From a virus: a DNA stretch of 38,058 nt. The notes beneath the pieces are model-generated. The model was not told the origin of the DNA. It saw only the letters and a list, made by a program, of their open reading frames with translations, and made no database searches. The DNA lies in the IMG/VR virus record IMGVR_UViG_3300025316_000034, positions 1 to 38,058 of that record; one strand, written 5' to 3'. Of this stretch, positions 22,524 through 34,686 are shown piece by piece. Made by a program: the position numbers and the translations under genes. How positions within the stretch are numbered: position 1 is the stretch's first letter; the number at the start of each line of letters is the position of its first letter.

Positions 22524-22987
22524 TACGCTGCTTTCTTTTGTTTAGTGGTTAGTCGTGCATTTGGCACCTCAGTATAGGTTACGCTCTCAGGCTCGGTGTG
22601 AGTGAGGGCGTCGATGACGCGGGTTTGCGCTTGCTCGAGAGCAGCGGTGATGGAGATGCGCTGTTCGACGTCGATGGATAGTTGTTGTTTGGCAACCCAT
22701 CCGTGGACGTTTTGCAAGATTGCGAGGGCTGCACGGGAGTCACCGTTTTGTGCAGCAGTATGCAAGAGTTCGCTAGCTTCATATTCACCTTCGGCTCTGC
22801 CTGTTAATTCTGCCCATTCAGCAATCGGATCAAACTGTACTAACTGACGATATTCGGTGGGGAGCATACCAGCTGCTAACGCCAACGAATCTCCCTTAAG
22901 GCCGAGCTTGGCGGCTTTCTTGATTGCTTCAAGCCGTGACTCTGTAGCTTGCAGCTTACGAGGTTCATAAGGAAAGGATACAAACAT
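22523..22987 (-). CDS. Terminase small subunit (probable)
   Basis: A 154-residue protein at the head of the late operon. Residues 20-50 look like a helix-turn-helix (KKAAKLGLKGDSLALAAGM followed by LPTEYRQL), followed by helical oligomerisation segments (AQNGDSRAALAILQNVHGWV) and a basic tail (RLTTKQKKAA). P22 gp3 is 162 residues. It should recognise the pac site and start packaging. No clear SD precedes the ATG; the GTGAT inverted repeat lies four bases upstream of the start. Confidence 0.7.
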   Translation of the reverse strand: MFVSFPYEPRKLQATESRLEAIKKAAKLGLKGDSLALAAGMLPTEYRQLVQFDPIAEWAELTGRAEGEYEASELLHTAAQNGDSRAALAILQNVHGWVAKQQLSIDVEQRISITAALEQAQTRVIDALTHTEPESVTYTEVPNARLTTKQKKAA

Positions 22988-22990
22988 AGC

Positions 22991-23003
22991 GTGATGTTAT
23001 CAC
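22991..23003. promoter_or_regulatory. Operator-like inverted repeat before terminase
   Basis: GTGAT-gtt-ATCAC is a perfect 5-bp inverted repeat with a 3-base spacer, four bases upstream of the terminase small subunit start. A related half, GTGATAAC, occurs near 23620 at the other side of the region. It could be a repressor site or overlap a promoter. Short repeats arise by chance. Confidence 0.3.
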
Positions 23004-23292
23004 TATTCAATAAAAGGGCATAGGGGCTATCTGCATAAAAAATAAAAATTGTTCGTGATACCTCCGCAGCAGACCGGCTGTTAGCCAAGGCCCTAGGGGG
23101 GGGGTCTAAAAAATAGGCAAGAAGTTTCAGGCTAGGGGTTTACCCTTACTTTACAGCTCGGGGATTGTCTGTCATGTAGCCATGTAGTCATCTTAATTTG
23201 GGCGCGGTCATTGTTTCCCTTTTCCCTTTTTTATTTTGGGCGCGTGGCTAATGGCCTGGGGATTGTCTGTCATGTAGTCAAATAGTTTTTAG

Positions 23293-23362
23293 ATGACTAC
23301 ATGACCTACAATTTTTGGCATGGCGCTGGGGGCGCTCTTGAAAATGTAGGTCATGTAGTCAT
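23293..23362. repeat. Perfect 18-bp inverted repeat
   Basis: ATGACTACATGACCTACA (23293-23310) is the exact reverse complement of 23345-23362, separated by 34 bases. It is built from two facing iteron copies and could form a cruciform or a strong RNA hairpin. Confidence 0.85.
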
Positions 23363-23403
23363 ATAGTCACGCGAAAATAATCGCTGGCTTATAACATTGT
23401 ATG

Positions 23404-23415
23404 TAAGTACTTACT
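23404..23415. repeat. 12-bp palindrome in the AT-rich core
   Basis: GTAAGTACTTAC is a perfect palindrome at the left border of the AT-rich segment (ATATATACAAATTAGC follows). It may be a dimeric protein site or chance. Confidence 0.45.
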
Positions 23416-23660
23416 AACATATATACAAATTAGCTATATATCTATAATTAATGACTACATGACCGACAAACCCCAAAAATCCTAGGCTTTATAAGCCGCC
23501 GCGCCCAGGTCATGCAATGACTACAAATTGACTACAAATTGACTACATGACCGACAAATCCCGCCCGCGTTGTTTATTTTCAATAAACTGTAAATAAATT
23601 GTTTACGCTCTCTATTTTTGTGATAACCTAACCATCCCTTCGGGGAAAACAAGAAACTTA

Positions 23661-23679
23661 ACTAAAGTAAAGGTAAAAA
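23661..23679 (+). promoter_or_regulatory. Shared early leader with Shine-Dalgarno, copy 1
   Basis: ACTAAAGTAAAGGTAAAAA directly precedes the ATG at 23682 (two bases between). The same 19 bases precede 25310, and its first 13 bases precede the minus-strand gene starting at 34288. It contains the AAAGG SD. Conservation beyond the SD suggests an additional role. Confidence 0.75.
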
Positions 23680-23681
23680 CG

Positions 23682-23981
23682 ATGCACACTCTCACAAAAA
23701 CCCTAGTTTTTAACACTGGCCGCCAGTATTCCGAAGCCGGTCAACGTATCGCCGCCGCTCAATTGGACGACGGCAGCATTCTATTTGTTGATATTGATCG
23801 CGGCCTTGAGTATCTAATAGCGCCAGGCGCTGCTAGTTTTACGCAAGATTCAATAATGGCCGCTTATGATCGCGGCGGTTTGGATTTTATAGAGCACTGG
23901 CGCGCTGGCCCTGCTATGGATCGAAATATTCAGCTCGCTGAAGAGCTAAGCGCGGCAGCTGCTGCACAAGGGGCAAAATAA
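23682..23981 (+). CDS. Unknown early protein, 99 residues
   Basis: First gene of the rightward GC-richer operon, behind the ACTAAAGTAAAGG leader. The protein has a beta-rich first half (IAAAQLDDGSILFVDIDRGL) and a helical second half (RNIQLAEELSAAAAAQ) with no membrane segment or known motif. Its TAA overlaps the next ATG (TAATG at 23979-23983). Being the first gene beside the origin-like region, it may be an early host-takeover or regulatory protein, but nothing in the sequence fixes this. Confidence 0.6.
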   Translation: MHTLTKTLVFNTGRQYSEAGQRIAAAQLDDGSILFVDIDRGLEYLIAPGAASFTQDSIMAAYDRGGLDFIEHWRAGPAMDRNIQLAEELSAAAAAQGAK

Positions 23982-24085
23982 TGCGCGGCCCTAAATTATC
24001 CGAGATTTTATTAAGCTGCGCCCTGGGCGCAATTCTAGGCGCTGGCCTAATGACAATTTACATTCTACGCACTGGGGGATTTTAA
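23981..24085 (+). CDS. 34-residue single-span membrane peptide
   Basis: The ATG overlaps the preceding stop (TAATG), and the next gene starts two bases after this stop. The peptide MRGPKLSEILLSCALGAILG continues AGLMTIYILRTGGF: a short basic start and one hydrophobic stretch (about residues 9-29). This fits a small inner-membrane protein. Coupling on both sides supports it being real; the function is unknown. Confidence 0.6.
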   Translation: MRGPKLSEILLSCALGAILGAGLMTIYILRTGGF

Positions 24086-24087
24086 TC

Positions 24088-24606
24088 ATGGCTTACATGA
24101 ATCAGGAAAAGAAAAGCATTATCAAGGCCGCAATGGATAAAGTACTTAAGGCCCGCGGGTTTAAGTATTCGCTGCGCGTAGAAAATCACATGGCGATCGC
24201 TTGCACAATAAGCGCCGGCCCAGTGGATCTAATCGCTAATTTTAGGGATAAGACCGGGAAAACTTTCGAGCTGCCGGGCCATGATAAGGGCCATATGCAA
24301 GTTAATTTGTATTGGTTAGAGGATCATTTTAGCGGCGAAGCGCTGCAGGTGCTGCAGGAATGCGCCCAGGCGCTCAAGGCCGCCGGATATTATGATCGCA
24401 GCGACGCAATGACGGATTATTTTGATACGGCCTACTATATGCATTTAAATATAGGCGGCTGGGATAAACCTTACAAAATCACGGCGCGCACAATGCGACA
24501 AAGCGCCGCGGCCATAACAGAAGAGGCCATAAAGGCCAAAATTCGCGCCCAGGGCTGCAGCTCTGAATTTTTGAATAATCAATTTATTGTGAAGGTAATC
24601 AACTAA
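24088..24606 (+). CDS. Unknown conserved-looking early protein, 172 residues
   Basis: The N-terminus is helix then strand (KKSIIKAAMDKVLKARGFKY, then SLRVENHMAIACTIS and GPVDLI). The centre is GHMQVNLYWLEDHFSGEAL and the C-terminal half has YDRSDAMTDYFDTAYYMHLN followed by IGGWDKPYKI. The YDRSD ... DYFDxxYYxHLNIG pattern recalls small phage and plasmid accessory proteins of unknown function (loosely like the LPD29-type polyvalent domains), but I cannot name it. There is no signal peptide. It overlaps the next gene by one base (TAATG). Confidence 0.6.
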   Translation: MAYMNQEKKSIIKAAMDKVLKARGFKYSLRVENHMAIACTISAGPVDLIANFRDKTGKTFELPGHDKGHMQVNLYWLEDHFSGEALQVLQECAQALKAAGYYDRSDAMTDYFDTAYYMHLNIGGWDKPYKITARTMRQSAAAITEEAIKAKIRAQGCSSEFLNNQFIVKVIN

Positions 24607-25295
24607 TGAATAAATATCATTTAACCCCAAAATCTAGCAATGTAAAAACCGGGCCAATACCAGTAAGCACAACCAGCGCCAAAACCTGCCCGCCTGAATG
24701 CCCATTTAATAATTCTCAAGGCTGCTATGCCGGCAGCGGGCCGCTTGCATTACACTGGGCCGCCGTAACCCGCGGCGATCGCGGCGACGAATTCGCGGAT
24801 TTTTGCGACAAAATCGCAGCGCTGCCGGACGGTCAATTATGGCGCCATAATCAGGCCGGGGATTTACCAGGTAATGGCCTAGAGATTGACGGCGCAGCCC
24901 TGGGCGATCTAGTCAAAGCCAATAAGGGGCGCCGGGGCTTTACTTATACGCACTATAACCCGGCAAACGGGCGCAATAGCGCCTATATAAAGGGCGCTAA
25001 TGATTTTGGATTTACTGTAAACCTAAGCGCTAACACTCCCGCGCATGCCGATACCTTGGCCGCGCTGGGCCTTGGCCCTGTAGTTACAGTGCTTCCTATA
25101 GATCAACGCGAAAATACGAATACGCCAAGCGGCCGGAAAATTGTAGTATGCCCGGCCACAATTCGCGACGATGTAAGCTGCAGCACGTGCAAATTATGCG
25201 CAATTAGTAACCGGACGGCCATTATTGGATTCCCGGCGCATGGTACGCAAGCCAAGAAGGCCGCGCGGGTTTTTAGCATTCAATCAATCCACTAA
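24606..25295 (+). CDS. Cysteine-rich conserved phage protein, possible metal centre
   Basis: A 229-residue protein. It opens with a conserved-looking KTGPIPVSTTSAKTCPPECP followed by FNNSQGCYAGSGPLALHW. Cysteines fall in two clusters, C28-x3-C32-x7-C40 and C182-x9-C192-x2-C195-x2-C198, suggesting zinc or iron-sulfur binding. The region HWAAV ... SAYIKGANDFGFTVNLS is alpha/beta. I have seen this family repeatedly in phages and plasmids (I believe filed as a DUF, possibly DUF7227); no function is established to my knowledge. The stop codon lies inside the leader of the next gene. Confidence 0.6.
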   Translation: MNKYHLTPKSSNVKTGPIPVSTTSAKTCPPECPFNNSQGCYAGSGPLALHWAAVTRGDRGDEFADFCDKIAALPDGQLWRHNQAGDLPGNGLEIDGAALGDLVKANKGRRGFTYTHYNPANGRNSAYIKGANDFGFTVNLSANTPAHADTLAALGLGPVVTVLPIDQRENTNTPSGRKIVVCPATIRDDVSCSTCKLCAISNRTAIIGFPAHGTQAKKAARVFSIQSIH

Positions 25296-25309
25296 AGTAA
25301 AGGTAAAAA
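25291..25309 (+). promoter_or_regulatory. Shared early leader with Shine-Dalgarno, copy 2
   Basis: ACTAAAGTAAAGGTAAAAA is identical to 23661-23679 and is followed immediately by the ATG at 25310. It overlaps the TAA of the Cys-rich gene, so the leader also ends that coding sequence. Confidence 0.75.
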
Positions 25310-25534
25310 ATGAACTATTCCACAAGTGATTTAAGAGTATTGCAGCAAGTCCTGGAAGATAACCGCGCATTCAATCAAAACCTAATTAAGCAAACCCTAG
25401 AAACCCGCTTAACTACTGTAGATATGATTTTGCACAATGCCGCTTTGAATGCCCGCGACAATGAAGGCCGCGCAGCCTGGCATGACATCAACGCGGCCCG
25501 CAATGTAATTAATCAAATACTGGGGGGCCTGTAA
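25310..25534 (+). CDS. Small helical protein, 74 residues
   Basis: A helical, Asn/Gln-rich protein (LRVLQQVLEDNRAFNQNLIK, then HNAALNARDNEGRAAW and INAARNVINQILGG). Three helices are likely, with no membrane segment or known motif. It is translated from its own copy of the shared early leader and overlaps the next start (TAATG at 25532-25536). It may be a small DNA- or protein-binding factor; the function is unknown. Confidence 0.6.
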   Translation: MNYSTSDLRVLQQVLEDNRAFNQNLIKQTLETRLTTVDMILHNAALNARDNEGRAAWHDINAARNVINQILGGL

Positions 25535-25750: not shown

Positions 25751-25777
25751 GGCCCGCTATACGCGGGCCTTTTCTTT
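25751..25777 (+). terminator. Terminator of the rightward early operon
   Basis: GGCCCGC and GCGGGCC form a perfect 7-bp stem with a TATAC loop followed by TTTTCTTT on the plus strand. It separates the plus-strand operon from the convergent primase-helicase gene. Confidence 0.88.
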
Positions 25778-28076
25778 ACTTAACGCGCACGAGGTGCGGG
25801 CTTGGTGGCGATTCAACGGCGCGCCGTAGCTCGGATTTACTCATGGCCTGGGCGATATCAGGCGCAGCGAATATATGTTTCTTGGCGGGATAATCGCGGG
25901 CCATAAGGCGCCCGCAATCAATCCAGCCCGCTTCCTTGAGCGCATGCAATAGCGCGGCCTGGGGTACCTTAACGCCTGCGGGCGCCGTACCGGCCACGCG
26001 GTCACATAAGCTGTGGAATGGTGATCCGATAACGCCCGCGGCAAACTCGCCCCGGCGCTCGCGCATCATCTCTACTAGGAAGCTCTCGGCCATGCTCATG
26101 CCATGCTCTACTAGATTGGCCTTGAACTCAGTCCACATCGGCGGCGCGCTAGGATTAAAACGGGATACATCACGCTTTTTAAGATTATCCGCAATAGCAG
26201 CGAACCCGCCGGCACGATACCAGTCCCACATTTTCTTGGCCTTGTTTGAGTCCATACGGGGCGCAGCCGACCAGACGCAAAACCACCGGCGGTCTTGGCT
26301 ATCTAGCGAGATCGGCACGGGATCATTACTAAACGCCAGTACGAACAGGCGGTTTGCCATCATGTAAGGGTGCAAGCCCTTGCGGTTGATTGGTAGCATC
26401 TCAGGCGGGGCAGCAATAATTGGTTTGAGTTGGTTAGCAAGCTGGCGACGGGTCGCGGCATCAGGCTCTTTTAGCTCGTTAATAATCAATACTTCTGACT
26501 CTAGCTGATAACCCCATTGGCTATTGACGCTGTTATTGTCCATAATGCCGCGATTTTTAGAGTGATTACCGCAGACAGCCCATATAAACGGCGCCCAAAA
26601 GGTATCTTTGCCGCTTCCTTGATCGCCAGCATGAAGGATAGCGTGGTTTATCTTAATCTCAGGGTGTTGCACCTTAAAGGCCATCACATCAAATATATGC
26701 TCTAGCTCATCAGGCTCAGGCACTAGCTCTTGACAATGCTTTAGCCACATAGAGATGTCAGCAGACGGGTTTTCTAATTGTGGGCGGGCATCACGCCAGC
26801 GGTTGCCATATAGATCACCATCACGGGACACGATCACATCTTCACCGGCAGCGTAAGTAACACCAACCAAAGCCTTCGCGCCCATCGCTTGACGATTCTC
26901 ATCAAAGCAAATAGACGCTTCTACTTTGCGCCCTGTATGAATACTCTTGCAGGCGGTATGACGGAACAGGGCGTTAAAGGTTTGACGGCTTACTTCGCGG
27001 CGGTCTTGCATATCAAAGTAGGACTCATCGTCTTGAATGTAAGCAAAGCGAGAATACCACTCAGCCTTCTCGATGCGTCCTAGTTCTTTACGCTCAACTT
27101 CAGCAATGAGTTCGGCAGCCGTATCGCGGTAAATATCGTTAGGTGTTAGCTTAGACAAGGTATCTTTCATTTTCTCCGCTAGCAACTCATCACGCAAGCC
27201 ATGCGATACAGTCGGGCCACCATTATCCGCTACCCAATCTAAAAACATCTGCGAACTAAAGTCCACGCAATGACCATGCAAGCAACAGAACGAACGATCT
27301 AAGGGTTTGTACCGACCTTCAATGTTGCCATCGGTATGCTCTGCGTTGTTAGGGCAAACGATGCCCATCCAACCTTCGCCATTCGCCGGTGACATGATTA
27401 GCCCTTGCTCGTTAAGCCATGTAACAACTGAGTCCTTGCCTGTGTCAGCAAGGCGAATGGCTACGTTGGTTGCCGTATCAGCAGGATCAGGTGTGACAGC
27501 TAGAGCGACACATATATCTTCAAGGTTGTATTCACGCTCAGGGTGAAACTCTACCAAAACTGACGCAAAGTTAGCGCGCCCTGGCTTTAAGTTGATTGAT
27601 CCTGGCAAACGAAAATTACGCACTGCGTTAGTTGCGCCTGGATCTGTGTAGCTTGCCTTAGCAATCGCTTTGATGGCTGCGGTAAAGTCGCCCTTGGTTG
27701 GTTGCTCTTTAAAAGCATAGCCCCATTGGTATGAACCTTCGGACGTTTCCATGATCCAAGTGGGCGCAAGTGGTGGCTCTTTAGACTTGGTGCCGATGTC
27801 ATCTAACATCATCACAAGGACGTATTCGCAATTGGCGCTTGACGCTGACACCTTGCCATCGGCAAAGCGATCAAGAATAAACGAGCCTGTATTGCCGTAA
27901 ATTGCCCAATCCTTCTTGACCTTAGCGGTTGGTAGGAACGCAGGCCATGTGCATTTAATCGTGCCATCAGCATGGGTCTGTAATTGCCCGTTACCATCTA
28001 ACTGTGGTTTTTGACGCACAACAAGGGCTGTTTCACCATTAGGTGCTAGGTTCGTGATATATTCTACAAAGTTCAT
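25776..28076 (-). CDS. Primase-helicase (RepB-like primase plus DUF5906 SF3-type helicase)
   Basis: A 766-residue replication protein. Residues about 60-200 look like an archaeo-eukaryotic-type primase (VLVMMLDDIGTK with D92/D93, later AVRNFRLPGSINLKPG). A likely zinc finger follows, with C241, H247, C264 or C265, H267 and C270. The C-terminal part carries a helicase ATPase with Walker A G484-D-Q-G-S-G-K490 and Walker B-like VLIINELKE (about 529-537), the architecture of NrS-1-type and DUF5906 proteins. It should prime and unwind the fork for the family A polymerase encoded upstream. AAAGG precedes the start. The 3' third is GC-richer than the rest. Confidence 0.85.
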   Translation of the reverse strand: MNFVEYITNLAPNGETALVVRQKPQLDGNGQLQTHADGTIKCTWPAFLPTAKVKKDWAIYGNTGSFILDRFADGKVSASSANCEYVLVMMLDDIGTKSKEPPLAPTWIMETSEGSYQWGYAFKEQPTKGDFTAAIKAIAKASYTDPGATNAVRNFRLPGSINLKPGRANFASVLVEFHPEREYNLEDICVALAVTPDPADTATNVAIRLADTGKDSVVTWLNEQGLIMSPANGEGWMGIVCPNNAEHTDGNIEGRYKPLDRSFCCLHGHCVDFSSQMFLDWVADNGGPTVSHGLRDELLAEKMKDTLSKLTPNDIYRDTAAELIAEVERKELGRIEKAEWYSRFAYIQDDESYFDMQDRREVSRQTFNALFRHTACKSIHTGRKVEASICFDENRQAMGAKALVGVTYAAGEDVIVSRDGDLYGNRWRDARPQLENPSADISMWLKHCQELVPEPDELEHIFDVMAFKVQHPEIKINHAILHAGDQGSGKDTFWAPFIWAVCGNHSKNRGIMDNNSVNSQWGYQLESEVLIINELKEPDAATRRQLANQLKPIIAAPPEMLPINRKGLHPYMMANRLFVLAFSNDPVPISLDSQDRRWFCVWSAAPRMDSNKAKKMWDWYRAGGFAAIADNLKKRDVSRFNPSAPPMWTEFKANLVEHGMSMAESFLVEMMRERRGEFAAGVIGSPFHSLCDRVAGTAPAGVKVPQAALLHALKEAGWIDCGRLMARDYPAKKHIFAAPDIAQAMSKSELRRAVESPPSPHLVRVK

Positions 28077-28133: not shown

Positions 28134-28592
28134 TTATAGAGCTAACTCAGCTTGTTTGCGCGCCGCTATTGCGTCCGCCTTATTTGCAAATCTACCAAGG
28201 TGAATAGTCTTGTAGTTTACTTTGATTCGAGCGCACCACTTTGACCTTGCGCTATCCCATGACACGCCACGCTCGCCGTCAAGATTGTGCATATTTTGCG
28301 ATTGATTCGCAATTCTTAAATTCGACACGCAGTTATCATCTTTGATGCGGTTAATATGGTCAAGATTACCATTAGGCATAGCGCCATGCACATAAAGCCA
28401 AACCAAACGATGCGCTTTATAAAGCACACCATCAATGCGAATGACGATATAGCCGTAATGATCTTTAGCGCCTGCGGTATCACCTTTTACAACGCGGTTG
28501 CTTTTAGGGTTTTTCCATACAAACATACCCGATGATTGGCAATAGCTTAGGACTTCCTTAAGACGTTTTTGCGTTAGAATCGCATCAGCCAT
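28134..28592 (-). CDS. HNH homing endonuclease with AP2-type DNA-binding end
   Basis: A 152-residue free-standing endonuclease. The HNH domain covers residues about 55-103: H61, D78-H79 (NLDHINRIKDDN), N91 and N100. Residues 107-147 are an AP2-like DNA-binding module (RGVSWDSARSKWCARIKVNY, then LGRFANKADAIAARK). Such genes are selfish elements that spread by cutting alleles lacking them. It lies between the polymerase and primase genes with its own hairpins on both sides, consistent with insertion as a mobile unit. Confidence 0.88.
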   Translation of the reverse strand: MADAILTQKRLKEVLSYCQSSGMFVWKNPKSNRVVKGDTAGAKDHYGYIVIRIDGVLYKAHRLVWLYVHGAMPNGNLDHINRIKDDNCVSNLRIANQSQNMHNLDGERGVSWDSARSKWCARIKVNYKTIHLGRFANKADAIAARKQAELAL

Positions 28593-28675: not shown

Positions 28676-30691
28676 CTACTTTCCATAGCGTGCCATAACT
28701 TTAATTTCAACATCTAAGGGTAAATCCGCACACCAGCTAGGTGAGGCGCACATTATTTTACGCATACGTTGTTTTACCTGCTCGGCATCGTCTTTGTGGC
28801 ACTGCACCACAATTTCATCATGCACGTGGGCTATGGTAGCAAAACGCGCTACTTCCATTTCACGCAATGAATGGCGCAACACATCGTTAGCCGTTGCCTG
28901 CGTAATGTTCTCGCAAGCCAAACCCTTCCACAACCGTGCTTTAGGCCATTCTTTTGCGTCTGCCGCAGGCTTCCACGCCGCTTTAGCGTACGACACCCCA
29001 TCTTCATCCAGCGTAGCGTATGGGTAGCAAAGCACACGCCCTGAAGGTAGCGCGTACCAAAGATGTAATCCATCAAATAAATAAGTCACGCGCCCTGCGC
29101 TGAACTCAAAACCTTTATTACGCATGGCGCGGGTATAAGCTGATTCAAGGTCTTGGCCATGCTTCATCGCCCACATATTTGCGCGGCGCCAAGTTTTAAT
29201 AGCTTTTTGAACTTCATTTTCGGTTAGCTTTACGCCGTACACACGACCAAAAGTTTCAAAAGATCCTGCTCCGCCTAAAAATCCTAGCGCCAATTCCTGA
29301 ACTTTGCCTACCTGTCTTTCGTCCGATTTACCTGCATTTTCATATTCTTCGGCGATCACTTCGTACGGCTTATTGAATGTTGCCGACGCGTTAACAATGT
29401 ATGGGTCGAGTCCTTTTCTAAACGCCTCTAGCTTTTCTTCGCCTGGCTCACAATTTGACAACCAAGGGTGTACTCGGCCCTCAATTGCGCTCCAATCAGA
29501 CACAACTAGCACGTGATCTTTAGGCGCAATAATGGCGGGGCGCAACATCCCCTTTAATACATCTGTTACTCGTCGTCCAAAGGTAGGGACAATTGCGTGG
29601 CCACTAACCATAGCGGTTCTAACGGCATCAGGATCCTTAGCGCATTTTCTTGTGAAATTGTGCAATTGTGCTCCATAGCTACTTGCCCGACCTGTGGCTG
29701 ACCCACCAGCGAACACAAACGCGCCACGAACTCGGTTATCTTCTTCATCAGCTAAATCCTTTAATCGGTTGAACTTCGCAACACTAGACGCCCATAGGTC
29801 GTCCGCACATTGGATAACATCAGCAACTTCCGGCGGTATCTCATCGGGGTTTTCTTCAGCAAGAATAAGTAAGTTAGCTCGAACTGACTTGTCGATCGAA
29901 TATTTCTTGTCGCCATCTTTATACACTTCCATTAGTTTCTTAGCTTCATCGCCGACTCGCACTAAGACCCACTCACGCATCTTAGGGCTACGTACTGAGG
30001 TGATTTCACCTTGCGTCACTTCAGCGACGATTTGCTCAATTTCTTGTAATTCCTCGCTAGCATAGCGCACTGCGGCTTCGCACAAGGGCTTATCTAGTAA
30101 CACGCCACGGTCATTGATGCGCTCGTTGACATGATAATCAAGCAACTCATCTTTGGATAGTTGGCGCATCGCCATGCTGATAGAACGCATGGTTCTGACA
30201 TCCTGCATGGCGTAGTTACCCATTTCTGCTAACAAGGTAGGGTCTGTACTAAATGTACCATCAGCCCTTGGGATACACAACAAACGTATGAGTTGATTGC
30301 CTCGGTGATCCTTACGCATGGACGAGCTAGCAAAGCGACCAACGTCCTCAAGTGAGCCTGGAGCGCAGTTAGCCCGTGCTTGTGCGGCGGTGCAATACCA
30401 CTGCGTTAGTAATGGCGTAGGTACTAAAAAGTCATGGCACAGGACGAACTCAGTAATGAGGCGGTCAAAGCCTGCGTTGTGCGCCCTGATTTGACCATCG
30501 TCAAAAAAATGTTGCGCTACACGCTTAGGAAATTTTTGGTCAGGCGTCCACAAGGCAACGTCCTCATCATCAAAGGCATACGCCATGCAGATAACTTCGG
30601 TGCTTGGATCCTGAGCGTAGTTATAGGCGCCACGACTGCGTAAATCGCATCGTGACCTAGACTCATAGTCAATCCACAAAATACTAGACAT
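28676..30691 (-). CDS. Family A DNA polymerase with 3'-5' exonuclease
   Basis: A 671-residue replicative polymerase from the ATG at 30691 (MSSILWIDYES); an upstream in-frame start would run deep into the HNH gene. The exonuclease has D8 and E10 (IDYES), the HNAGFDRLI segment and D164 (YAMQDVRTM). Polymerase motifs are A with D399 (VVSDWSAIEGRVHPWLS), B with R459/K463 (DERQVGKVQELALGFLGG) and C with H624-D625-E626. The motif A sequence DWSAIEGR differs from the textbook DYSQIELR but is typical of phage enzymes. The HNH gene upstream overlaps its start by eight bases. Confidence 0.92.
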   Translation of the reverse strand: MSSILWIDYESRSRCDLRSRGAYNYAQDPSTEVICMAYAFDDEDVALWTPDQKFPKRVAQHFFDDGQIRAHNAGFDRLITEFVLCHDFLVPTPLLTQWYCTAAQARANCAPGSLEDVGRFASSSMRKDHRGNQLIRLLCIPRADGTFSTDPTLLAEMGNYAMQDVRTMRSISMAMRQLSKDELLDYHVNERINDRGVLLDKPLCEAAVRYASEELQEIEQIVAEVTQGEITSVRSPKMREWVLVRVGDEAKKLMEVYKDGDKKYSIDKSVRANLLILAEENPDEIPPEVADVIQCADDLWASSVAKFNRLKDLADEEDNRVRGAFVFAGGSATGRASSYGAQLHNFTRKCAKDPDAVRTAMVSGHAIVPTFGRRVTDVLKGMLRPAIIAPKDHVLVVSDWSAIEGRVHPWLSNCEPGEEKLEAFRKGLDPYIVNASATFNKPYEVIAEEYENAGKSDERQVGKVQELALGFLGGAGSFETFGRVYGVKLTENEVQKAIKTWRRANMWAMKHGQDLESAYTRAMRNKGFEFSAGRVTYLFDGLHLWYALPSGRVLCYPYATLDEDGVSYAKAAWKPAADAKEWPKARLWKGLACENITQATANDVLRHSLREMEVARFATIAHVHDEIVVQCHKDDAEQVKQRMRKIMCASPSWCADLPLDVEIKVMARYGK

Positions 30692-31148
30692 GAGTTCTAC
30701 CTTTTTTAATATCCCAAATAGCACATTGAGTTACATTAAATTGACGTGCTAATCTAGCTTGTGTCCCCCTAGGTGCATTTACAAGGCTCTTTTTTATACA
30801 CGCTACGTCTAAAGGCTTTAATTTACTTAGCCCATGCGCTGTCTTGTCTTTAATATTTTCAGACCTTGTACCCCATTTAAGGTTTTCTAATCTGTTATCT
30901 ACAGGGTTTCCGTTTAAATGACGGCACTCATGTTTAATTGGTGCTGGCCCAACAAAAGCCAATAACACTAATTCATGGACGCAACGGCTATTACCACGTC
31001 CTAAAGCAACAGATAAATGACCACCACTCATACGACCTGGTTTCAGTAATTTAGGGGCGACGCTCCGTCTAAATGATCGAACATTACCAAGCGTACTTAC
31101 TTGATACTGCCCTTCATATCTAGGGATGTCTTTCCAAATCTCATTCAT
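30684..31148 (-). CDS. NUMOD4/HNH homing endonuclease
   Basis: A 154-residue endonuclease. Residues 3-27 are a NUMOD4 motif (EIWKDIPRYEGQYQVSTLGN). The HNH core is around residues 58-98: H58, then C75-R-H77-L-N-G and N85, LENLKWGT, N98. The C-terminus (about 112-150) is a helix-turn-helix (ARLARQFNVTQCAIWDIKKG) for target recognition. The gene overlaps the polymerase start by eight bases, so it may be coupled to it. Together with the HNH gene at 28134 it brackets the polymerase. Confidence 0.88.
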   Translation of the reverse strand: MNEIWKDIPRYEGQYQVSTLGNVRSFRRSVAPKLLKPGRMSGGHLSVALGRGNSRCVHELVLLAFVGPAPIKHECRHLNGNPVDNRLENLKWGTRSENIKDKTAHGLSKLKPLDVACIKKSLVNAPRGTQARLARQFNVTQCAIWDIKKGRTHV

Positions 31149-33151: not shown

Positions 33152-34288
33152 TTATTGAATTTTAGAGAGGGCTGCGGTAAGTTGCTGCCCGATTTGTAAC
33201 ACCGCTGGCCTTGGGTCTGATTCCTCGGCTAACGTACTGCCACTGCTTACTGCTACTACTTGATTGGCAGGCAATTGCTTGCCATGCTTTTTCAATACTT
33301 TTTCTGCCTGAGCAGGAGATATTACCTTAACTGTAGTCAATTCTTCTTCAGGAATACCCTCATTAAGCATCGCTACCAAAGCTTGATCGTCATCACCCCA
33401 TTGGCGAATGGCACGTTTAGCTACCAACTTGTAGCCCGGTACGGGTTTGCCTGCTTCTAAGACTTGATGCGCTAGGGCGCGTAGGTCTGTGATCCACTGC
33501 TCTAGCATATCGGCTTGTTGAAGATAGTTCGATATTTGAGCTACGTTAAGAATGTCAAGCTGGGCGTGTACAGCGCGGTCAACAGCGCCTGTCATCTTAG
33601 GACAAGTAGGCTTGGCAGCGCACCAACGGCAATGATCGCCTGTATTGATGGGCGCATCAGGCAACTGAGCAATCTTAACTGCCATCAAAAGCTCTTGTTC
33701 AAAGGCTTTAATACGTTTCTTATCTGTAGTCCAACGCTTTACAGATGGCGGTTGCACGATGATGCACTCAATCTCATCGCAATCATCAAATACCCATTGG
33801 ACTTCAGGAGTACGCATGGCTGCGGCGGCATAGAACATCAGTTGAGGATTATCTTCTGCATCCACTGGTACGCCTGACCCAAACTTCCAATCGAGGATAA
33901 ATGCGCGTCGTCCAATGCGACCGAGCAGATCAGTACTGCCAAACACACCAGGCAAAAGGTCACCAAAGCCAACACGCGTTTCAGTTGCATATTCCATCTC
34001 CTTATTAGGGTCAACGGCGTCTAATGCCGCTAAAGCTGGGTAAACCTTCTCATTGATAAGTTCTTCGGTTAGTTTGATGCCTTCATATTCCATTCCAACG
34101 AAGGATTCAGGCGTTTGACCTGTAGTCAGGATTAAGTCCATGACGTTATGAAGTAGGGTACCTTCATCAGCATATTTGCTGCTAGGCTTTGGTGGCATCT
34201 TAGCGCACAGGGCTACTGAGCCTGGGCAACCGATGACGCGCTTGGCTGTAGAGCCACCAACGATTGATGAATGTTTCGTGAGTTCCAT
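33152..34288 (-). CDS. DUF2800 / Cas4-like PD-(D/E)XK nuclease
   Basis: A 378-residue protein. Early motifs are IGCPGSV (C21), GTLLH (H47) and GSTDL (D120), then ILDWKFGSG with D133 and K135 forming the (D/E)xK active site, and Q149-L-M-F-Y153. C220, C223 and C229 (HCRWCAAKPTCP), together with C21, make a four-cysteine iron-sulfur cluster like that of Cas4 and AddB nucleases. It is probably an exonuclease in phage recombination or host DNA turnover. It is first in the leftward replication operon, behind the shared leader and a good promoter. Confidence 0.85.
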   Translation of the reverse strand: MELTKHSSIVGGSTAKRVIGCPGSVALCAKMPPKPSSKYADEGTLLHNVMDLILTTGQTPESFVGMEYEGIKLTEELINEKVYPALAALDAVDPNKEMEYATETRVGFGDLLPGVFGSTDLLGRIGRRAFILDWKFGSGVPVDAEDNPQLMFYAAAAMRTPEVQWVFDDCDEIECIIVQPPSVKRWTTDKKRIKAFEQELLMAVKIAQLPDAPINTGDHCRWCAAKPTCPKMTGAVDRAVHAQLDILNVAQISNYLQQADMLEQWITDLRALAHQVLEAGKPVPGYKLVAKRAIRQWGDDDQALVAMLNEGIPEEELTTVKVISPAQAEKVLKKHGKQLPANQVVAVSSGSTLAEESDPRPAVLQIGQQLTAALSKIQ

Positions 34289-34295
34289 TTTGATT

Positions 34296-34308
34296 CCTTT
34301 ACTTTAGT
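34296..34308 (-). promoter_or_regulatory. Shared early leader with Shine-Dalgarno, copy 3
   Basis: On the minus strand ACTAAAGTAAAGG lies seven bases before the DUF2800 start, identical to the first 13 bases of the two plus-strand leaders, and GTTAACTAAAG extends the match to the 23.66 kb copy. Confidence 0.75.
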
Positions 34309-34325
34309 TAACTGATTGAGATTCC

Positions 34326-34355
34326 ACTATACACCATAAATAAATAATTGTGCAA
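34326..34355 (-). promoter_or_regulatory. Leftward sigma70-type promoter for the replication operon
   Basis: On the minus strand TTGCAC (-35), 18 bases, TATAGT (-10). Expected start near 34319, leaving about 30 bases of leader that includes the ACTAAAGTAAAGG element. Its -35 overlaps that of the rightward promoter. Confidence 0.6.
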
Positions 34356-34377
34356 AACTTTTTTACTGTGATATATT
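34348..34377 (+). promoter_or_regulatory. Rightward promoter, possibly leaderless
   Basis: TTGTGC (-35), 18 bases, TATATT (-10) with the extended TG at 34369-34370. The -10 ends seven bases before the ATG at 34384, so transcription would begin at or near the start codon. No SD precedes that ATG, consistent with leaderless translation. Confidence 0.5.
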
Positions 34378-34383
34378 TACGAC

Positions 34384-34686
34384 ATGGCAAGAAAAACTAA
34401 AGTTTTAAAAGAAAACGAAATTGAAGCTTACTTCTTATGGCAGGTGGCGCTAATGAAAGGTAGAACCTTTAAGTTTAAGACAACTACGCAACGTGGGGTA
34501 GCAGATCGTATTGCTTGCTTGCCTAATGGCGAAACGTGGTTTGTTGAACTTAAACGTCCTAAAGGCGGTGTATTAGCCCCTATGCAAGAGCTATTTGCCG
34601 AGTCTATGGTTGCGCTAAAGCAACGCTATGCGCTACTCAATACAGTCGAGTCTATTAACGAATGGTCAGCAAAAATTAAATTATGA
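34384..34686 (+). CDS. VRR-NUC domain nuclease
   Basis: A 100-residue protein that is a whole VRR-NUC domain (PD-(D/E)XK superfamily). Catalytic positions visible are E14 (NEIEAYFLWQ), D41 (RGVADRIACLP), E55 and K57 (TWFVELKRPKGG) and Q68. Stand-alone VRR-NUC nucleases of this size accompany SNF2-type helicases in many phages, as here, where the stop overlaps the helicase start by four bases. It may resolve DNA junctions or process ends during replication. The gene lacks an SD and follows a promoter closely. Confidence 0.88.
   Translation: MARKTKVLKENEIEAYFLWQVALMKGRTFKFKTTTQRGVADRIACLPNGETWFVELKRPKGGVLAPMQELFAESMVALKQRYALLNTVESINEWSAKIKL

Follow-up and report, generated by a model that had tools for sequence, protein, structure and literature searches.

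In bacteriophage lambda the initiator O is a protein separate from the helicase and recruits the host DnaB, and in satellite P4 a single chain, the α protein, holds a primase, an SF3-type helicase and a C-terminal winged helix that binds the origin, with iterons at ori and crr. The origins of phage-inducible chromosomal islands (PICIs, including SaPIs) that are served by Pri-Rep proteins lie directly 3′ of rep and consist of two iteron sets flanking an AT-rich region, a paired-array layout that was reported to be unique to phage-inducible islands (PMC6092414). In the PLE satellites of Vibrio phage ICP1, the RepA_N domain covaries with the origin, replication takes place only with cognate pairs, and a joint swap of initiator domain and origin alters susceptibility to an origin-directed phage nuclease (PMC8263062). 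The primase-polymerase of phage NrS-1 has a recognition sequence of 8 nt that occurs only twice in its genome, and its description mentions no iteron array (PMC7102993). How an initiator changes its specificity without killing its replicon is an open question, since both partners have to change together.

The window analyzed here is a stretch of 38,058 nt, covering positions 1 to 38,058 of IMG/VR virus record IMGVR_UViG_3300025316_000034. From sequence comparison we consider it very probable that its control region at 22988–23681 is a replication origin and that the primase-helicase of the phage is the initiator. The layout, two iteron sets around an AT-rich region, is that of PICI-type origins, and the window resembles the Pri-Rep replicons also in having a primase-helicase as candidate initiator (PMC6092414). 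It differs from them in being a lytic-type phage genome, in which the array lies 2.1 kb past the 3′-end of the primase-helicase gene, beyond the early operon and beside terS. This 38-kb phage has portal, terminase, capsid and tail genes and does not fit the definition of a PICI (integrase, rpr/stl repressor, small size, helper dependence); no integrase was seen among the genes scanned, which cover part of the record. Lambda-type origins likewise have phage iterons beside an AT-rich region, but there the initiator is separate from the helicase.

A first-pass annotation had described this region as iteron-rich, with six long copies of a repeat in both orientations, tandem 11-bp partial copies, an 18-bp perfect inverted repeat and a 12-bp palindrome around an AT-rich core, placed between divergent operons. 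Each of these elements is present:

22988–23681, no strand: intergenic control region of 694 nt with two outward-pointing iteron arrays and an AT-rich core (putative replication origin)
23166–23190, minus strand: left-array site TGACTACA-TGGCTACA-TGACAGACA, degenerate (the sixth copy)
23264–23280, minus strand: left-array bipartite site TGACTACA-TGACAGACA
23294–23310, plus strand: left-array bipartite site TGACTACA-TGACCTACA, facing the next site
23345–23369, minus strand: left-array bipartite site TGACTACA-TGACCTACA plus an additional TGACTATA half-site
23388–23451, no strand: putative unwinding element, the conserved AT-rich core beginning CTTATAACATT
23403–23414, no strand: 12-bp palindrome GTAAGTACTTAC, peculiar to the window's phage
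23452–23468, plus strand: right-array bipartite site TGACTACA-TGACCGACA
23518–23556, plus strand: three right-array TGACTACA half-sites at 11-bp spacing (23518, 23529 and 23540), the third followed by TGACCGACA

The region is flanked by terS, which starts at 22987 on the minus strand and runs leftward together with the structural genes, and by a small early operon that runs rightward from 23682 on the plus strand. The record as a whole has five exact copies of TGACTACATGAC, and every one falls inside this region, three on the plus strand (23294–23305, 23452–23463 and 23540–23551) and two on the minus strand (23269–23280 and 23350–23361), and a reversed control pattern of TGACTACATGAC had no match anywhere in the record. 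With up to three mismatches allowed, TGACTACATGACC was matched 21 times against 7.0 ± 2.75 in shuffled sequences, and none of 100 shuffles reached 21. The repeats are real and far above chance. Their unit is bipartite rather than a 12-mer, an 8-mer followed head-to-tail by a 9-mer, and reads TGACTACA + TGACC(T/G)ACA in the window, that is, TGACTACA-TGACCTACA or TGACTACA-TGACCGACA (the window's own 17-bp site is TGACTACATGACCGACA). The sites point outward on both sides of the 64-nt core, the left copies mostly one way and the right copies the opposite way, and the 18-bp inverted repeat (23293–23310 / 23345–23362) is made up of two full sites that face each other. The palindrome GTAAGTACTTAC is missing from relatives that retain the rest of the core. 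No RNA family and no tRNA was detected in the record. Just upstream of terS, on its side of the array, a AAAAATTGTTCGTGATACCTCC element is conserved at 23038–23070 in the window and at the same place in relatives, with a run of G or C after it; this may be the late promoter region. Cumulative GC skew, which had been proposed as a check on the origin, makes no turn at 23 kb and lends the origin no support; it follows gene direction and has its minimum near 34 kb, at 34288–34384, where gene direction switches.

A search with the primase-helicase led to 80 viral contigs, and the terS/terL order is kept in nearly all of them where the contig extends that far. The gap upstream of terS contains repeat arrays in most relatives, with a word that differs by lineage (TGACTACA-TGACCKACA, TGACAATT-TGACCTA, tandem TTGTCCACA, TTGTCCACA-TGACCCACA and others). 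Repeatedly across loci, the first site to the left of the core anchor is in reverse orientation and the first to its right in forward orientation; in the 25 anchored loci together, 104 left sites are reverse and 32 forward, against 70 forward and 8 reverse on the right. Mean A+T of the core in these loci (first 62 nt) is 72%, above that of the surrounding kb in 25 out of 25. Array, orientation and core are conserved, then, while lineages differ in the word. All loci are metagenomic contigs, which may be fragments, except for one named phage, and the control regions were bounded about 1 kb upstream of terS, for which reason some contain early genes. When the control region itself was used in a DNA similarity search of the phage collection there were no matches, because word and spacers diverge fast. 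The suggestion that related phages should carry the repeat thus held for the array, which is kept in close relatives, but not for the word, whose changes match changes in the wing of the primase-helicase. A second, unrelated repeat family (GTGCTTACTAAC, CTCACTAAC and CACTAAGTCTTAG) is found upstream of terS in L120, L123, L100, L167, L201 and others; it is common in distant relatives and does not look like the initiator word.

The same annotation had seen no obvious dedicated initiator gene next to the repeats. This part of its proposal is not supported, as a primase-helicase gene whose product tracks the word lies 2.1 kb away:

25776–28076, minus strand: primase-helicase with RepB_primase N-terminal domain, DUF5906/SF3-type AAA+ helicase and predicted C-terminal winged helix (Pfam, NrS-1 homology and covariation)
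27570–27821, minus strand: RepB_primase-like domain, residues 86–169 (Pfam)
26286–26627, minus strand: DUF5906 helicase domain, residues 484–597 (Pfam)
25866–25922, minus strand: wing of the predicted C-terminal winged helix, β hairpin 719–724 / 733–737 (AlphaFold2 models)
25902–25904, minus strand: codon 725 (Met), tracks base 6 of the 9-mer (covariation)
25896–25898, minus strand: codon 727 (Arg), tracks the ACA ending, base 8 (covariation)
25887–25889, minus strand: codon 730 (Pro), tracks base 4 (covariation)

In Pfam the product is barely at the cut-off for RepB_primase (24.4 against 24.3 bits) and over the cut-off for DUF5906, and it has primase and helicase domains in one chain, as expected of an SF3-type initiator. 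The helicase part is homologous to the ring helicase domain of NrS-1 (profile E 1e-10; Foldseek E 1.7e-13 with 6K9C). In AlphaFold2 models, both of the C-terminal part and of the full-length protein, a helix-turn-helix helix at 706–716 is followed by strands at 719–724 and 733–737; residues 725–732 form the hairpin loop or wing, and the local pLDDT is about 90. Most fold matches of this domain are winged-helix proteins, though all matches are weak (best E 0.04), and we hold with moderate confidence that it is a winged helix. The order of domains in one chain is shared with P4 α, but the origin-binding domain of P4 gave no profile match in the PDB and is absent among the 50 fold matches listed, and the iteron words differ.

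Which protein tracks the word was addressed by a column scan that assumed no reader, in which between-locus word similarity was compared over 75 non-redundant loci after identity of the first 640 primase residues had been removed, and which took in 501 primase, 113 terS and 380 terL columns. Residues 730, 725 and 727 of the primase-helicase track the word (r = 0.73, 0.70 and 0.50), the next column reaches 0.29, and the permutation maximum across all primase columns is 0.27 (1000 permutations); residue 725 had already been singled out in an earlier, smaller comparison. The best columns of the other proteins were 0.19 for terS, 0.26 for terL, 0.16 for polA and 0.23 for portal, which rules out DNA polymerase and portal as word trackers. 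Identity over the whole primase does not follow the word, only the wing does. A further 154 loci, retrieved by searching with two distant members of the family, gave 101 independent new control regions. In a scan of these loci alone, the top two of 568 columns were once more 730 and 725, in that order, with lower r (0.21 and 0.20). Residue 727 is not prominent there, as most of the new loci have Arg and similarity by exact 7-mers misses such a residue, which is why a base-level table is preferred for 727.

Grouping the loci by residues 725, 727 and 730 yields clean words, described by the template T N R Y C N A C A. Words that accompany Arg727 end in ACA; Lys, His or Arg725 goes with C at base 6, where Ala, Met, Ser or Gly725 mostly go with T, A or G; and Asp or Glu730 with T at base 4 (C being tolerated), where other residues at 730 go with C. 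In the 101 new loci, at least three TNRYCNACA sites are present in 79 of 85 loci with R727 against 2 of 16 without it, and a C at base 6 was found in 263 of 281 K725 sites and in 93 of 95 H725 sites. The main rules were set down before these loci were fetched and the column-scan method was fixed in advance, while the template and the tables for bases 4 and 6 were formalized after the new loci had been viewed and are a summary of both sets, not strictly blind. Phylogenetically independent pairs, taken from a tree built without the C-terminal domain, agree with the rule in a mean of 14.7 of 18 cases for 727, 11.5 of 12 for 725 and 7.4 of 11 for 730, with pairs in the opposite direction averaging 0 for all three, and there are about 20 independent changes at each key wing position. 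In R727 loci the template occurs 7.10 times per kb in the control region against 0.53 per kb elsewhere in the fetched DNA, a 13-fold difference. The exceptions are 11 R727 loci with fewer than three template sites and 20 loci with C at base 4 despite D or E730. By covariation across 177 related viruses, then, three wing residues predict the letters of the repeat. We found no paper describing such a code of wing residues and origin words in the part of the literature covered.

Close relatives suggest how the two partners could change together. Between the window and L006 or L007 the primases are 93–94% identical, and DNA homology ends at the wing (about nt 2168–2220 of the gene) and restarts just upstream of terS; the pair L020/L024 has the same break and the same restart, and in word-switch pairs homology breaks at primase codon ~723–740. 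L010 and the window have homologous early genes (about 86%), with a different wing and array. These alignments indicate that close relatives have exchanged a single block comprising wing, early genes and origin. The covariation across the family indicates that reader and origin were jointly rewired on many occasions. As the wing is encoded at the origin-proximal end of its gene, both partners can travel in one exchange block, which gives a physical reason why joint change is easy. Two HNH endonuclease genes (28134–28592 and 30684–31148) flank the DNA polymerase gene and are near the primase-helicase gene, whose 3′-end is exchanged.

The array sits between divergent operons, and it could consist of operators through which the primase-helicase or another factor mainly controls the divergent late (terS) and early promoters, with the origin elsewhere. 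Promoter-like matches do overlap it, at 23338–23367 on the plus strand and 23148–23175 on the minus strand, but two matches against 2.0 expected is the chance level, the protein that tracks the word is a replicative primase-helicase, and the layout fits PICI origins and not operators. We regard operators as the main role of the repeats as unlikely, although autoregulation may occur at the array alongside origin function. Sites of the pac or cos type are commonly near terS. As terS begins at the very edge of the array, the repeats might be a packaging site for the adjacent small terminase, but terS and terL columns do not track the word, and the window's terS is 95% identical to that of L007, which nevertheless has a word of the TTGTCCACA/TATCCACA class. 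Packaging is highly improbable on these grounds, and the column scan together with the window/L007 pair leads us to reject it.

TTGTCCACA, together with its TTATCCACA variants, is the most frequent word in the family and equals or nearly equals the DnaA box TTATNCACA, and host DnaA as reader of degenerate boxes would account for this. The window's 9-mers TGACC(T/G)ACA, however, differ from that box at three positions, and neither the window's word TGACTACA-TGACCKACA nor TGACAATT, TTGCCTACA and TAGCCAACA are DnaA boxes; the word present follows the wing residues of the phage, and a phage protein with a DnaA-type helix-turn-helix was found only in the distant MW202483 (L320), with BLAST relatives in L281, L282 and, weakly, L286. 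It is very doubtful, then, that host DnaA reads the array. In L320 (MW202483.1, 7083–7379), the protein in question is a small product of the early operon of a spring-water podovirus with a Bac_DnaA_C helix-turn-helix (E 1e-17). The commonest word goes with K725, R727 and D730 (L006–L085 and L166–L244) and is a DnaA box or one mismatch off; its likeness to the box is due either to convergence or to sharing of the box with host DnaA. The products of 23682–25534, named as candidate initiators by the first-pass annotation, have in their favor that their genes adjoin the array. These proteins are absent from most relatives with the same word (among the five loci that have the window's word, none of the four is encoded in L014, L020 or L030, and two are in L008), and some are present in relatives with other words, such as two phages with the word TGACAATTTGACC that encode the 172-aa protein at 76–92% identity. 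Not being common to phages with the same word, the early proteins are ruled out as readers, and we give them next to no chance of this role. The DUF7227 gene of this operon (24606–25295) is also found in the early operons of many phages that are otherwise dissimilar, among them large Pseudomonas myoviruses.

We therefore favor the view that the region is an origin read by the primase-helicase, which retains from the earlier proposal an origin with initiator sites, as judged by architecture and by the identity of the probable reader, and drops the early proteins as initiators. In the model we propose, the C-terminal winged helix would bind the repeated 8/9-mer half-sites, with the wing reading bases; helicase rings would then assemble on both arrays, which are opposite in orientation, and would open the AT-rich core that separates them, with the first strands primed by the same polypeptide. 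Contact through the wing is suggested by covariation and the structural model, and physical binding, melting and firing of the origin would follow from the same picture. Because it would read paired opposite arrays around an AT-rich core, the primase-helicase would be an origin-binding initiator as in PICI/P4-type replicons.

The PLE satellites resemble the window's family in that the initiator's DNA-binding domain and the iterons are swapped together, repeatedly and as modules (PMC8263062). There, however, RepA is not described as a primase-helicase (PMC8263062) and its DNA-binding domain is not C-terminal, and whole domains differ in a handful of elements, as against three C-terminal wing residues in 177 loci here. 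By analogy, the altered nuclease susceptibility of PLEs suggests a selective reason for the switching of wing and origin in these phages. We tentatively propose, as a possibility short of an expectation, that the family uses a near-modular natural wing code (725 for base 6, 727 for base 8 and 730 for base 4) that predicts origin words of uncultured phages, that the need to escape origin-directed rivals (satellites, nucleases or coinfecting phages) drives the frequent joint switching, and that the word of the commonest class has come to resemble the host DnaA box by convergence. To the question of how an initiator can change its specificity, the family supplies hundreds of natural solutions and a residue-to-base table, which predicts binding swaps and would let origins be assigned in uncultured phages. 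If the origin reading is true, the paired-array layout would no longer be confined to phage-inducible islands but would also occur in phages that carry a complete complement of structural genes.
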